Origin: Desulfobulbaceae bacterium
Lineage (GTDB): Bacteria; Desulfobacterota; Desulfobulbia; Desulfobulbales; SURF-16
Assembly (NCBI GenBank): GCA_002868945.1
Contig: PKTX01000004.1
Span: 127,425-190,795, forward strand
Reading direction: 5' to 3'
Length of the DNA: 63,371 nt
Both the position numbers and the translations under genes were made by a program. Shown here piece by piece: positions 6,737-43,157 of the stretch; positions within the stretch are counted from its first letter, which is position 1, and every line of letters starts with the position of its first letter. The notes below the pieces were generated by a model, which saw only the letters and a list, made by a program, of their open reading frames with translations, had not been told where the DNA came from and searched no databases.

Positions 6737-8155
6737 TTAGTTGCGGGCAGCCCCCTTCACCTTACGGGGATCACCCTTGTAGCCCAGACCCTGCCAATCC
6801 AGACGACCATTGTCACCATGGCAGTCGTTGCACTTCAGGGCATCGCCCTTCTCGGCAACCATATGGTTGATGGGCCAGTAGGTCTCGGTGGCGGCAAAAC
6901 CGTACTCACCGGAATAGGCAAGACCGGAGGCCTTCATGCCTGCCTCGGCAGCCTTGTCCCAGTCAAAGTTGACCCAGAAGGCCTCGGGATCACCCTTGAA
7001 GCCGAAAACCTTGGGGGTGATGAAGTAGTTATTCTTGACGTCATAGATCTGTTTGCCGGTATGGACCTTGAAAGGCATGATCTTGGCGTTCTTGTCGTTG
7101 ATGTCGCCCAAGGGGTAGTTCAGCTTGGTGACCTGGGTCGGATCAATCTTGTCGCCAAGCTGATAGGAGCCGGCCACGCCGTTGTACCAGCGGTACTCGG
7201 GGGTGACATTCTGCTCATAGGTGAAGCGCCCCTTTTTGGCGATATAGACCTTATGACCATGCTCCTCTTCGGTGGGCTTACCCTTCTCGGCCTTGGACCA
7301 GTCCCAGCTCATCTTGGTGGCATCCTTCTTGGCAAAGGTGGGGATATGGCAGGTCTGACAGGCGACAGTTGCCGTATGCTTATTGATGATGCCGCTCTTG
7401 TGCTCGCCGTCATGGCAGTTCTCACAGCTCACCGGAGTGGTGCCCATGGGCGAGACAATAAGAGAGTTACCGCTGATCTTATGCTCGCTGGTCTGATGAC
7501 ATTCCTGGCAGGTGAAGTTGTTGCCCTCGGCCGCCATATGGATGTCGATACCCTTGTCCGGGTTGAGCAATGACATGTCGATATCGCCGTGCTTGACGTT
7601 ATTGCCGCCACCACCGTTGGCATGACAGGCCAGACAGTCGTCACGCTGGGGGATGCCGACATTCTGGGCAACCTTGACCAGGTCCACGGGATTTTTGTCA
7701 AATGAGGCCTTACCGGTATAACCGGGCGGCATGCCGGCCCCGGCAGGAGCGCCCTTGGCCTTCTTGTAGTCGCCGCTGGTGTCATGGCAGACCAGGCAGT
7801 CCACCCGGCTCTCGTCGCTAAAATCAAAAGAGGCGTCCTGCCAGCCGTAGCCGACATGACAGCTCGTACAGCGCGGCCAGTTGCTGTTGATGGAAACACA
7901 GAAGTTATTTATGGCATTCTTTTTGCCGCGCTTTACCTTTTTGCCGTCGATTTCCTGCTCCAACTCCCAGGTCCAATGGCTGGTGGCCATGACCTCTTTG
8001 GAGGCATCCTCATGACACTCAAGGCATTTCCTGGTCACATCCATCGGTGTGGCAAAGGGACCGGTGATACCCTTATGGTCTTCATTGGCGCTGGCCAGAG
8101 ATGTCCCGGCCAGCAAGGCCAGGGCAGCTGTGGACACGATCATACACTTTTTCAT
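6737..8155 (-). CDS. Octaheme c-type cytochrome, tetrathionate reductase (OTR) family
   Basis: 472 aa periplasmic protein with a Sec signal peptide (residues 1-23, ending ASA). Eight CXXCH motifs are visible: CLECH, CTSCH, CLVCH, CLACH, CQECH, CENCH, CQTCH and CNDCH. The segment NNFCVSINSNWPRCTSCH is typical of octaheme tetrathionate reductases, whose active-site heme carries an unusual lysine ligand. OTR proteins reduce tetrathionate and also nitrite or hydroxylamine in vitro; the in vivo substrate here is unknown. A sigma-54 promoter lies at 8311-8325 and a sigma-54 activator is divergently encoded. No dedicated quinol oxidase is adjacent. Confidence 0.92.
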   Translation of the reverse strand: MKKCMIVSTAALALLAGTSLASANEDHKGITGPFATPMDVTRKCLECHEDASKEVMATSHWTWELEQEIDGKKVKRGKKNAINNFCVSINSNWPRCTSCHVGYGWQDASFDFSDESRVDCLVCHDTSGDYKKAKGAPAGAGMPPGYTGKASFDKNPVDLVKVAQNVGIPQRDDCLACHANGGGGNNVKHGDIDMSLLNPDKGIDIHMAAEGNNFTCQECHQTSEHKISGNSLIVSPMGTTPVSCENCHDGEHKSGIINKHTATVACQTCHIPTFAKKDATKMSWDWSKAEKGKPTEEEHGHKVYIAKKGRFTYEQNVTPEYRWYNGVAGSYQLGDKIDPTQVTKLNYPLGDINDKNAKIMPFKVHTGKQIYDVKNNYFITPKVFGFKGDPEAFWVNFDWDKAAEAGMKASGLAYSGEYGFAATETYWPINHMVAEKGDALKCNDCHGDNGRLDWQGLGYKGDPRKVKGAARN

Positions 8156-38006: not shown

Positions 38007-39725
38007 ATGCACTCCCCCTTAGACATCTGGAAACTGTTGGCCGGCCTGGCTGTTTTTCTCTATGGCATGCATTTGATGGAGGACTCCATCAAGGCCTTGA
38101 GCGGCAAGGCCTTCCGCCGCATGATCCGACAATACACCAATGGCCGCTTACGCTCCATGATCGGCGGCACCCTGGTTACCACCATCCTGCAGAGCAGCTC
38201 TGCCGTCTCACTCATGGTCCTGGCCTTTGTCGGGGCCGGCGTCATGACCATGGAAAACGGTATCGGTGTCATGGTTGGTTCCAATATAGGCACCACCTTT
38301 ACCGTCTGGATTGTTGCCCTGTTCGGCTTCAAACTGAAGATTGAAAGCCTGGCCCTGCCCATGATTGCCGTGGGCGGCATCATCCTGGTGAGCAGCAAAC
38401 CCACTTCACGCATCTTTCAGGCCAGCCGCCTGCTCCTGGGCTTCGGCTTCCTCTTCCTGGGCCTTGACTTCATGAAGGGCAGTGTGGAGAGTTTTGCCCA
38501 GCATCTCGACATCAAGGCCATTGGCCATTATGGCCCCTGGCTCTATGTCCTGTTCGGCATTGTCATCACCGCCCTCATGCAGTCAAGCCTGGCCAGTATC
38601 GCCATTACCTTTACCGCCCTGAACACCGGGCTCATCAGCTTTCCCATGGCCGCGGCCATGGTCATCGGTGCCAACATCGGCACCACGGTCACCGTGCTGC
38701 TGGCCGCCATCGGCGGTATCCAGTCGCAAAAGAGGGTGAGTGCCAGCCACCTCATCTTTAACATGGCCACGGCCCTGGTCGCCTTTATCTGCCTCCAGCC
38801 CCTGATCTGGCTGGTGAGCCATTTCTTTGACCCGGCCATAAACGGCATCATGGCCCTGGCCCTATTCCACACCCTCTTTAATGTGCTGGGTGCCCTGCTC
38901 TTTCTGCCCTTTATCGGCATGCTGTCCCGCTTACTGGTGCGTACCTTTCCGGAGCGCAAGGAAATCCTCACCATCTACCTGGGCAATACGCCCACCGAGG
39001 TACCGGACGCCGCCACCACGGCCCTGCGCCAGGAGATCCTCCATCTGCTGGAGGAGTGCCAACTCTATACCCTGCGAGCCATGGGCATCGACGAACGGCT
39101 GGTCTTTGACCAGGTGTTGCCCTTTGAGAAAAAGGCGCTCAAACGGCTGCTGTTGGACGATCTCTACGACACCGTCAAACTGCTCCACGGTGAGATCTTT
39201 GAATTCTACGCCCGCCTGCTCGCGGAAAAACTGGATAAAAAAGAGAGCCGGGAGCTGGAGCGACTGATCTTTGCCTCGCGCAATATCATGAACGCCATCA
39301 AGAACATCAAGGGCATCCGCCACAACCTGGAGGAGTTTGATGCGGCGGACAATGCCTTTCTCAACAGCCAATACAGATGGTTCCGACGCCGCCTCATGGA
39401 GCTCTACCACGACATCAACCGCATCCGCCAGCTCGGCGGCAGCGAATGCTACCGCGAACTGCTGCGCAGCTTTGTCCACCTGGAACAGGCGGACAAACGT
39501 TTTATCAAGGAAAACATGGCAACCGCCGCCTCCGGCACCATGAAGGAGCTGGACATCGCCTCGCTGCTCATGGTCAACCGCCTCTTCAACCAGGCCTGCC
39601 GCCTGCAGATATTCGCCATCAAAGACCTGCTGCTCAGCGATACACAGATCCACGACTTTGACCACGCCCTGGAAACCAAGGAGTTCCTTGACGAGGAGCA
39701 GGCCAGGGAAACGGAGACGGAGTGA
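38007..39725 (+). CDS. Na/Pi cotransporter family protein with PhoU-like domain
   Basis: 572 aa. It has two repeated membrane units with the QSSSA/QSSLAS signature (TTILQSSSAVSLMV; ALMQSSLASIAITF) and GSNIGTTFTV/GANIGTTVTV, typical of NptA/YjbB transporters. A helical PhoU-like cytosolic domain covers about 350-560. It probably moves phosphate with sodium. ATG 38007 has GGAGAGAG ahead. The small TusA-like gene begins 48 bases downstream. Confidence 0.9.
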   Translation: MHSPLDIWKLLAGLAVFLYGMHLMEDSIKALSGKAFRRMIRQYTNGRLRSMIGGTLVTTILQSSSAVSLMVLAFVGAGVMTMENGIGVMVGSNIGTTFTVWIVALFGFKLKIESLALPMIAVGGIILVSSKPTSRIFQASRLLLGFGFLFLGLDFMKGSVESFAQHLDIKAIGHYGPWLYVLFGIVITALMQSSLASIAITFTALNTGLISFPMAAAMVIGANIGTTVTVLLAAIGGIQSQKRVSASHLIFNMATALVAFICLQPLIWLVSHFFDPAINGIMALALFHTLFNVLGALLFLPFIGMLSRLLVRTFPERKEILTIYLGNTPTEVPDAATTALRQEILHLLEECQLYTLRAMGIDERLVFDQVLPFEKKALKRLLLDDLYDTVKLLHGEIFEFYARLLAEKLDKKESRELERLIFASRNIMNAIKNIKGIRHNLEEFDAADNAFLNSQYRWFRRRLMELYHDINRIRQLGGSECYRELLRSFVHLEQADKRFIKENMATAASGTMKELDIASLLMVNRLFNQACRLQIFAIKDLLLSDTQIHDFDHALETKEFLDEEQARETETE

Positions 39726-39772: not shown

Positions 39773-39994
39773 ATGAACAACCAGGACCCTGTTGACTATC
39801 GGGGGGACTGCTGACGCGGTTTCAAGGACGTCAGGCGACGTCTCAAGCAGAGCCCGACCGGCGGCCGCTTCAGCTTTATCTGTGCCCCGGACATGGCCGG
39901 CAAGATGGAACGGGTCATCGCCTTTGGCGACGGCCGCACCATCAGCAAAAAACAGCAGAACGACCACATCCTCTTTGAGGTGGAAAAGAGCTGA
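39773..39994 (+). CDS. TusA/SirA-like selenoprotein candidate (in-frame TGA = Sec14)
   Basis: 73 codons with TGA at codon 14 (39812-39814). Read through, it begins MNNQDPVDYRGDCU-RGFKDV and continues to VEKS. It aligns without gaps over the first 35 residues with TusA: DYRGDCU falls on LDALGLRC-type sequence, placing Sec exactly on the sulfur-carrier cysteine. GGRFSFICAPD matches the next strand and FGDGRTISK the last helix/strand. A hairpin meeting bacterial SECIS rules follows the TGA. Thirteen codons precede the TGA, and no alternative start gives the downstream part until Met39. The purine-rich GCAGAGAGAGA lies before the ATG. Standard gene callers would miss it. Confidence 0.75.
39826..39843 (+). 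promoter_or_regulatory. bSECIS-like hairpin for selenocysteine insertion
   Basis: GACGTC (39827-39832) pairs with GACGTC (39837-39842), with an extra G-T pair outside. The loop AGGC has G in its second position. Eighteen bases separate the TGA from the loop. These values fall inside the published bacterial SECIS pattern (loop 3-14 nt, early G, 16-37 nt from UGA). Confidence 0.7.
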
Positions 39995-40019: not shown

Positions 40020-43000
40020 TCAGGAGTGGTCCGCCTTCACCTCCGGTAAGGCCCCCTCATCGCTCAGGCTGAAGAGCCGGCGAATGTCCTCAAAGATCAG
40101 ATAGAACGAGGGGATAATCAGCAAGGCGATCACGGTGCCGAAGATAATACCAAAGGCCAGGCTGATGGCCATGGGGATGAGGAACTGGGCCTGGGTACTG
40201 GTCTCACCCATGATCGGCACCAGACCGAAAAAGGTGGTGAGCGAGGTGAGCAGAATAGGTCGGAAACGGCGCTGGCCGGCCCTCAGGATGGCTTCCCGCA
40301 GGGCAATACCCCGTTTGCGCAACTGGTTGACATAGTCAATCAGCAGCAGAGAGTCGTTGACCACCACCCCGGCCAGGGCAACAATACCGAAGAGCGACAT
40401 CATGGCCAGGTCGTAGCCCAGCATGAAGTGGCCCCAGATGGCCCCCACCACGCCAAAGGGGATGGTGAGCATAATGAGCAGGGGCTGCGCATAACTGCGC
40501 AGGGGGATGGCCAGCAGGGCATGGATGGCCAGCAGGGAGATGGCAAAGCCCCGCCGCATGCTGGCCATGGACTGCAACCGCTCCTTGCTCTCGCCTTCCA
40601 GGTCAATGGTCAGGCCCGGATAATCATCCTGCAATTTCTGCAGGATGCCCTCCTGCAGACTGCCGATGATCTCTTCGGCATTGGCCACCTTGCTATCCAC
40701 GGAACCGGAGATATTGGTGACCCTCTTCTGGTCGCTGCGGCTGATGGTACTGAAGCCCTCTGACTCGACGACATGGGCCGCCTGGGCCAGGGGGATCTCG
40801 CCGCCACCGGGGGTACGAATGCGCAGGTTCTCCAGGTTCCAGAGATGGCGGCGTTCCTCCTCAGGATAGCGGACCATGACCTTGACCTCGTCACGGCCGC
40901 GCTGCAGACGCAGGGCCTCAGCGCCATAAAAGGCGCCGCGCAGCTGCCTGCCCAGCTCCTCCTCGGTCACTCCCAGGGTGCGGGCCTCGGGCTTGAGGGT
41001 GATCTTCATCTCTGTTTTGCCACGGCTCAGGCTGTTGGCAATATCACTTACGCCGGGATACTCCCGCAGCACAGCCGTCACCCGCGCCGCCGCCTCTTCC
41101 AGGACATGGAAATCCTCATGCCCCAGGCGGATATCGATATTGGCACCCATATGGACCAGATTGTTCTCAAAGGTCAGGCTCTCCACCCCGGGAATCTCGC
41201 CCACGGCCTCACGCCAGTAATCAGCCACGGCATTGGAACTCACCGAGCGCTCCTCGCTGGGGGTCAGATTGAGGGAGAGCGCCGCCAGGTGGGAGCCGCC
41301 ACTGCCCACCGTGGCATAGAGGTGGCGGAGAATGGTCTCCTCGTCCCCGGGCAGATTGGCGTCAAAGTGGGCAATGGCCTCCTCGGCCTTCTGCTCGATA
41401 AAGTCGCGGACCTCCCTGGTCTTGGCCACGGCCGTGCCCGTGGGCATCTCCAGGGAGACCCGAATCGTATCGCTCTCAACCTTGGGCATGAAACGAAACT
41501 TAACCACTCCGCCGGCCACCATGCCGACAGTGACAATCAAAGTGGCAATGGCGACGCTCATGGTCAGGTAGCGATGATGGAGACACCAGCTCAAAAAGGT
41601 GCGGTAAGGTCCGGCGATAAAGCGGTTAAGCCAGGCCCCGAAACGTTGCCGCAGCTTATCCGGCCCTCTGATAATGGCCCACACCTTGTCAGTGCCGGCC
41701 GTGGCTAGGGAGAGATGGGCCGGCAGGACAAAGAGACACTCCACCAGGGAGACCAGCAGGATCAGAATCACTACCTTGGGGATGGTGCTGATAAAGTTGC
41801 CCATTACACCGCTGACAAAAAAGAGCGGTGTAAAGGCGGCCACCGAGGTGAGAATGGCAAAGGTCACGGGCGTGGCCACCTGGATGGCGCCGCGCGCCGC
41901 CGCCTCGTCATAGGGCAGACCGCGGCCGCGATGGGTAAAGGTGTTCTCGCCCACCACAATGGCGTCATCCACCACAATGCCCAGGGCCATGATAAAGGCA
42001 AAGAGGGAAATCATGTTAATGGAGGCGTCCACCATCGGCATGAAGAGAAAGGCCCCGAAAAAGGAGATGGGAATACCCAGCATGACCCAGAGGGCAAGCT
42101 TGACCTCCAGAAAAAGGCCCAGAATAAAGATAACCAGTAACAGGCCCATGAGGCCGTTGCTGGTCAGAAGATCGATCCTGCTGACCAGGGCCTCGGAACG
42201 ATCCTTCCACACCGCCAGCTGCACCGTGTCGGGCAGGCCGGCGTTCTTCTCCGCCACATATTGATAGACGGTGCGCGAGATTTCCTTGGGGGTCTGGTCG
42301 CCGATGCGATAGACCTCGATCATGGCGGCCGGTTTGCCGTCAAAGAAAGAGGTCTCGTCGGTCTCGGCAAAACCGTCGCGTATGGTGGCGATATCAGCAA
42401 GACGTACCTCGCTGCCGTTCTCCTGCTGCACAATAACGATGTCGCCATACTCCGGGCCGAGGTAGCGCCTCTCCTTGGTCCGGATGAGGATCTCACCGCT
42501 TTCGGTCTTGATGGTGCCGCCGGGCAGGTCCAGGGAGGCCTTGCGCACACGCTCCGCCACCTGCCCCAAGGTCAGGTTATAGCGACGCAGGCTATATTCG
42601 GGAATGTCGATGGATATTTCATAGGGCCGCACCCCGGAGAGCTCCACCTGGGTGATGGTGGGCAGGGCCAGCAGATCGTCACGGATGGTGTCGGCCATCT
42701 CCCGCAGGCTGCGTTCCGGCAGGTCGCCGTACACCGCCAGGGTAAGCACCTCCCGCTTACGTAGAACCTTGCTGACAATGGGGCGTTCGGCATTCCCCGG
42801 AAAGGTGGTGATGCGGTCCACCTCGCTCTTGATATCCTGAAGGATAAGGTCATGGTTTTCGCCGGGATAGAGTTCGGCAACCACCTGACCGGAACCCTCC
42901 GAAGCGGTGGAACGCAGCTCCTTGACGCCGTCAATGCCGATGAGGTTCTCCTCGATCTTGAGAATGATGCCCTCTTCCACCTCCTCGGGGCCGGCACCAG

Positions 43001-43157
43001 GATAGGCCACCACCACCTGGACATAGTCCATGGTTATATCAGGGAAGACCTCCTGCTTGATATTGAGACTGACCAGCAGTCCGCCCACCACAAAGAGCAG
43101 CATCAGGAGATTGGCGGCCACATGATTGCCCGCCATCCAGCGAATGGCACTGTTCAT
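40020..43157 (-). CDS. RND-family efflux transporter, inner-membrane pump
   Basis: 1045 aa, full length for the AcrB/MdtBC class. It has twelve membrane helices in two halves with two large periplasmic domains. Landmarks are GILLV-type helix starts, ALGIVVDDAIVVGENT (helix 4 with the acidic relay) and GVVVNDSLLLIDYVNQLRKRG in the second half. It exports drugs, solvents or lipophilic anions using proton motive force; the substrate is not readable. Its start overlaps the adaptor gene stop by 4 bases (ATGA). Confidence 0.93.
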   Translation of the reverse strand: MNSAIRWMAGNHVAANLLMLLFVVGGLLVSLNIKQEVFPDITMDYVQVVVAYPGAGPEEVEEGIILKIEENLIGIDGVKELRSTASEGSGQVVAELYPGENHDLILQDIKSEVDRITTFPGNAERPIVSKVLRKREVLTLAVYGDLPERSLREMADTIRDDLLALPTITQVELSGVRPYEISIDIPEYSLRRYNLTLGQVAERVRKASLDLPGGTIKTESGEILIRTKERRYLGPEYGDIVIVQQENGSEVRLADIATIRDGFAETDETSFFDGKPAAMIEVYRIGDQTPKEISRTVYQYVAEKNAGLPDTVQLAVWKDRSEALVSRIDLLTSNGLMGLLLVIFILGLFLEVKLALWVMLGIPISFFGAFLFMPMVDASINMISLFAFIMALGIVVDDAIVVGENTFTHRGRGLPYDEAAARGAIQVATPVTFAILTSVAAFTPLFFVSGVMGNFISTIPKVVILILLVSLVECLFVLPAHLSLATAGTDKVWAIIRGPDKLRQRFGAWLNRFIAGPYRTFLSWCLHHRYLTMSVAIATLIVTVGMVAGGVVKFRFMPKVESDTIRVSLEMPTGTAVAKTREVRDFIEQKAEEAIAHFDANLPGDEETILRHLYATVGSGGSHLAALSLNLTPSEERSVSSNAVADYWREAVGEIPGVESLTFENNLVHMGANIDIRLGHEDFHVLEEAAARVTAVLREYPGVSDIANSLSRGKTEMKITLKPEARTLGVTEEELGRQLRGAFYGAEALRLQRGRDEVKVMVRYPEEERRHLWNLENLRIRTPGGGEIPLAQAAHVVESEGFSTISRSDQKRVTNISGSVDSKVANAEEIIGSLQEGILQKLQDDYPGLTIDLEGESKERLQSMASMRRGFAISLLAIHALLAIPLRSYAQPLLIMLTIPFGVVGAIWGHFMLGYDLAMMSLFGIVALAGVVVNDSLLLIDYVNQLRKRGIALREAILRAGQRRFRPILLTSLTTFFGLVPIMGETSTQAQFLIPMAISLAFGIIFGTVIALLIIPSFYLIFEDIRRLFSLSDEGALPEVKADHS

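Follow-up and report, generated by a model that had tools for sequence, protein, structure and literature searches.

We found that the plus strand between positions 39773 and 39994 of the window (the whole 63,371-nucleotide stretch of DNA analysed here) reads MNNQDPVDYRGDC-TGA-RGFKDVRRRLKQSPTGGRFSFICAPDMAGKMERVIAFGDGRTISKKQQNDHILFEVEKS and almost certainly constitutes a real gene encoding selenocysteine (Sec) in a protein of the TusA fold. The gene apparently represents an unreported, always-Sec family of TusA-fold selenoproteins in Desulfobacterota, and its sequence features and gene context suggest that the family probably acts as a selenium/sulfur relay or as a selenium-status protein. Inspection of the reading frame bore out the original prediction of an in-frame TGA at codon 14 with an open frame behind it, as 59 sense codons were found 3′ of this TGA, followed by a TGA stop (Table 1). 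The UGA of the transcript would be read through as Sec, directed by a hairpin located just 3′ of it. Such an insertion at codon 14 is suggested by the conservation of the UGA and of the hairpin and by the selection acting on the gene.

Table 1 Positions of the selenoprotein gene, its elements and other genes in the window
Feature	Position	Strand	Evidence
TusA-fold selenoprotein gene, 73 aa, M...DYRGDCU..., terminal TGA stop	39773–39994	+	ORF/translation; homologues; selection in relatives
Sec codon TGA (codon 14), immediately 3′ of a Cys codon	39812–39814	+	TGA in 112/112 motif matches and 32/32 strong profile matches
Bacterial SECIS hairpin: 7-bp stem 39826–39832/39837–39843, loop AGGC 39833–39836, conserved G 39834	39826–39843	+	Pairing/covariation in the family
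Na/Pi symporter, upstream neighbour	38007–39725	+	Same gene end upstream in two same-genus genomes
RND-type efflux transporter, downstream neighbour, not thought to belong	40020–43157	−	Read from translation
YedF, sulfurtransferase-like selenium metabolism protein (TusA + DsrE-like domains), non-adjacent	100–768	−	TIGR03527, 177 bits vs. cut-off of 110

Results and discussion

Distribution of the family and search for Cys forms

Matches to the gene were present in 15 of 22 genomes of the same taxonomic family (the window's own counted), and almost all of them have a single TGA at the corresponding position. A single-protein search of 395 Desulfobacterota genomes found 34, again nearly all with one TGA. 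When a profile built from 82 members was searched against 395 Desulfobacterota genomes, 32 genomes matched at E ≤ 2.1e-16 with one TGA in each; these strong matches were followed by a clear gap and then by five TGA-free matches at 20–23 bits. The five were rejected as Cys orthologues because each is a conventional TusA or YedF protein that carries CPxP or a closely similar motif. ‘No stop’ matches in genomes G214 and G374 and a match in G024 were dismissed as chance matches. To detect Cys forms in an unbiased manner, 84,980 species genomes were furthermore scanned at the DNA level for D-[YS]-R-x-D-C-TGN-x-[GA]-..., a motif in which the third base of the codon was left free. This motif was matched 112 times, a number that includes paralogue pairs from one assembly and thus does not stand for 112 species, and TGA was present in every match. 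TGC, TGT and TGG were absent from the Sec codon of these matches, the pattern having fixed D, [YS], R and D-C, so that outside Desulfobacterota a Cys form flanked by other residues might have escaped. All matches belonged to Desulfobacterota or to vaguely titled Proteobacteria/bacterium bins that grouped with them, and no family match was found on viral contigs. Carriers available in culture include Desulfogranum japonicum, D. mediterraneum, D. marinum, Desulfacinum hydrothermale and Desulforhabdus. The search for homologues with Cys or Sec at codon 14 thus yielded relatives whose strong representatives all carry the TGA. Frames that end there, which the original prediction had named as evidence against itself, were not found as conserved frames among the homologues. 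Within the family the motif D-x-R-x-D-C-U is conserved and its Cys–Sec pair is invariant.

Four copies appeared broken or degenerate through sequencing error or decay (L013, L111, L122 and L016): L111 and L122, both from metagenome-assembled genomes, have an early stop downstream of the hairpin, and L013 (243–416) is frameshifted at the TGA by an extra base just after it. Many Desulfobulbales assemblies contain two divergent paralogues, one of them of the type MRKRVRIDIDYRKDCUWG (e.g., L067/L099, L072/L139, L068/L128, L078/L141, L084/L098, L119/L123 and others). In the DSRxDCU clade, L184, L060 and L054 possess hydrophobic, lipobox-like N-terminal segments ahead of the conserved domain, which suggests that some members of this clade may be exported; in these loci the gene immediately downstream is often dusB-like.

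Selection past the TGA and the SECIS hairpin

Between relatives, the median dN/dS beyond the hairpin was 0.14, and the read-through part is therefore under purifying selection as a protein. The expected conservation of homologues past the TGA was confirmed, and an in-frame UGA followed by conserved coding sequence occurs in several genomes, as in bacterial selenoproteins.

The hairpin had been predicted to have a 6-bp stem and an AGGC loop beginning 18 nt past the TGA. The loop and its distance proved correct, whereas the stem was found to comprise seven pairs, one of them G-U. As a single sequence the hairpin has an ordinary folding energy (z = −1.03), so that the folding check was unremarkable in itself and the case for a SECIS rests on comparison. 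Pairing at the seven stem positions holds in 98.7% of cells across 112 distinct sequences, vs. 22–61% for stems slid by 1–3 nt. Pair 20/25 occurs as A-U (63), G-C (43) and C-G (3), pair 19/26 as U-A, C-G and U-G, and the distant DSRxDCU clade shows a compensatory change from A-U to G-C. Pair 18/27 alternates between G-C and G-U, which explains the alternation of Arg (CGT) and Cys (TGT) in the protein. The corresponding +9 codon is CGT in 81 cases, TGT in 27 and CGC in 4. In the remainder of the same genes CGT makes up only 82 of 565 Arg codons; synonymous codons within the SECIS are thus biased, CGT at +9 being overrepresented. A G occupies loop position 22 in 111 of 113 sequences, and the family accordingly has a hairpin just 3′ of the UGA with the conserved loop G of bacterial selenoproteins. 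Rfam models gave nothing at the gathering threshold over the whole window.

Selenocysteine machinery

The genome that contains the window (3.7 Mb, 99.99% complete) encodes all components whose presence the original prediction had made a point of checking, each above its family cut-off: SelA (621 bits), SelB (366 bits), tRNA-Sec, the selC product (74 bits), and SelD (365 bits). One in-frame TGA lies inside the selD gene itself, as would be anticipated where UGA is decoded as Sec. Co-occurrence with tRNA-Sec says little because this tRNA is found in most Desulfobacterota genomes (344 of 395); two of the 32 family-positive genomes (G225 and G365) were absent from the list of tRNA-Sec matches.

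Predicted fold and relation to TusA

An AlphaFold2 model computed from the window and locus sequences only (pLDDT 93.7, pTM 0.81) exhibited the β-α-β-α-β-β topology of the TusA family, with Sec14 at the start of helix 1 (residues 13–26). The six best solved fold matches by Z were all TusA/SirA-type proteins, namely TsuB/YeeD (10.4 and 10.3, two entries), E. coli YhhP/TusA (9.5), SirA-like DSY4693 (9.1) and TusA from IscS complexes (9.1 and 8.7). A profile comparison with TusA agreed in register, with an E-value of 7e-4 but a probability of only 26%. The proposed relationship to TusA was thus upheld by predicted fold, fold search and profile comparison. A global profile alignment (hhalign) placed DYRGDCU on DTKGLSC of TusA and Sec14 on the catalytic Cys (the Cys19 position). 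Together with the location of Sec at the helix start, this puts a reactive chalcogen residue at the carrier site, as had been proposed; the alignment was not gap-free as claimed, since one-residue gaps were needed in helix 1 and after strand 2.

The CPxP motif is absent from the start of helix 1, where its C is replaced by Sec and its prolines by K/R/W/S/A and F/Y/L. The window protein did not match Pfam TusA (PF01206) at the gathering score, and the best relative reached 22.2 bits vs. the cut-off of 28.6. With CPxP gone and the cut-off missed, we regard the protein as a TusA-fold relative and not as a member of PF01206 by the curated rule. A sequence search of the PDB with the family profile returned nothing meaningful.

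Genomic neighbourhood

At 18 of the 112 loci a LysR gene is located just upstream on the same strand. The LysR-linked clade comprises 24 rows of the tree, and the ends of the LysR and selenoprotein genes often overlap or nearly touch. All eight upstream LysR proteins tested scored above the cut-off of NF040786, the model for a LysR regulator associated with selenium metabolism (LysR_Sec_metab; LysR_Se in the following). An MBL-fold hydrolase with weak similarity to GloB and sulfur dioxygenases often precedes the LysR_Se–selenoprotein pair (e.g., L071, L073, L155) and possibly acts in the same pathway. Three loci of another clade have selB upstream, its end 34–43 nt from the family motif, and yedF lies within ~3 kb of the family gene in three loci; selD was not seen beside family genes in the neighbourhoods examined. 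Neighbours in other clades are varied (YkgJ-like, CreA, ferredoxin-like and polyphosphate kinase-like). Linkage to selenium genes is thus limited to some clades, and the copy in the window sits between the phosphate symporter and the efflux gene.

Elsewhere on the contig, a further TusA gene is situated ~4 kb outside the window. The window also encodes an octaheme tetrathionate reductase-family cytochrome (6740–8155, minus strand; TIGR04315, 590 bits) without an in-frame TGA; Sec forms of this family are included in the 2026 catalogue of prokaryotic selenoproteins (PMC13188914).

Proposed function and alternative explanations

A selenium/sulfur relay is suggested by Sec at the carrier position of TusA, by the invariant Cys–Sec pair and by the association with LysR_Se, SelB and YedF. 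The product would be a small single-domain TusA-fold protein with Sec in place of the sulfur-carrying Cys and next to an invariant Cys. This pair might bind a chalcogen atom in the form of a perselenide/persulfide or selenosulfide and hand it on, closing an internal Se–S bond upon release. Chalcogen transfer and the partners are suggested by sequence and gene context, and the protein may work together with SelD, YedF and the LysR_Se regulon. We consider this explanation as a whole, from a hairpin-directed Sec through a TusA-fold product to a chalcogen relay, somewhat probable; that the protein of the window itself relays a chalcogen is a nearly balanced question, on which we lean slightly towards doubt.

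A redox role without any carried chalcogen appears rather unlikely. Thioredoxin reductase, with its C-terminal Cys–Sec redox centre, provides the model: the vicinal pair would act as a thiol/selenol centre that reduces or repairs a target, in keeping with its invariance and, given the lipobox-like N-termini of some DSRxDCU copies, possibly with a periplasmic task. Redox proteins also make up the majority of selenoproteins (PMC13188914), but the predicted fold belongs to a family of carriers, and selenium genes, not peroxidases or disulfide reductases, are found as neighbours. Less probable still is a protein that reports selenium sufficiency, e.g., as a partner of the LysR_Se that shares its operon in one clade. 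Its full-length synthesis would require available Sec-tRNA, and Sec at codon 14 comes so early that a selenium-starved cell would make a short peptide only; the directly upstream LysR_Se gene, with stop and start codons that often overlap or come close to it, and selB at the same place in another clade fit such a role. Most clades, including that of the window gene, nevertheless have other neighbours, and the protein is devoid of a DNA-binding part.

We regard it as highly improbable that the TGA is a real stop, in which case the frame would be a pseudogene or would encode a 13-residue peptide with unrelated sequence behind it. The unexceptional energy of the single hairpin and the four degenerate copies would be compatible with it. 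They are outweighed by the retention of the TGA in all strong relatives across many families, by purifying selection past it, by SECIS covariation and by the confident fold of the read-through product. Returning to the relay, a dedicated selenium carrier or sensor that exists in the Sec form only, for which Cys could not serve, and that is co-regulated with LysR_Se and SelB is a possibility that we raise tentatively. If true, selenium handling would depend on a protein that itself needs selenium. The failure to find a Cys orthologue suggests that the underlying chemistry is beyond the reach of cysteine. As for how SelD is supplied with selenium in the cell, a TusA fold that bears Sec and is linked to selenium genes offers a concrete candidate.

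Comparison with known selenoproteins and TusA-like proteins

The 2026 catalogue comprises 119 prokaryotic selenoprotein families and no entry of TusA or SirA type (PMC13188914). The statement in the original prediction that SirA-like selenoproteins had been listed in surveys did not hold, as the ‘SirA-like’ protein of earlier selenium work is YedF, which is devoid of Sec (PMC5322559, PMC2432076). In NCBIfam release 20 the window protein was unmatched, and other members gave chance-level matches only, with no selenoprotein model among them. Cys homologues, far commoner than the Sec forms, exist for nearly all selenoproteins and are what most search methods rely on (PMC13188914, PMC12013277), and the authors of deep-Sep warn that families without Cys homologues can be filtered out (PMC12013277). 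A family without Cys orthologues escapes both Cys-based searches and gene callers, and this would explain why the catalogue does not contain the present one.

Adjacent Cys and Sec likewise occur in the CU-motif selenoproteins (KCU-star/DUF466, SaoL, SaoC, HgcA, MbdU and Csac_0668), but the motif context differs from that of the new family and no NCBIfam match connects them. With the TusA/SirA family (PF01206, including TsuB/YeeD) it shares the predicted fold, the length, a reactive residue at the start of helix 1 and a distant but detectable profile similarity, and it differs by Sec in place of Cys, the extra Cys directly before it, the loss of CPxP and scores below the Pfam cut-off. YedF (TIGR03527) resembles it as a TusA-like domain tied to selenium metabolism, which is encoded in the window and near some family members. 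However, YedF carries Cys and possesses a second domain of DsrE-like type, whereas the 73-residue product lacks that domain and consists of a single one with Sec.
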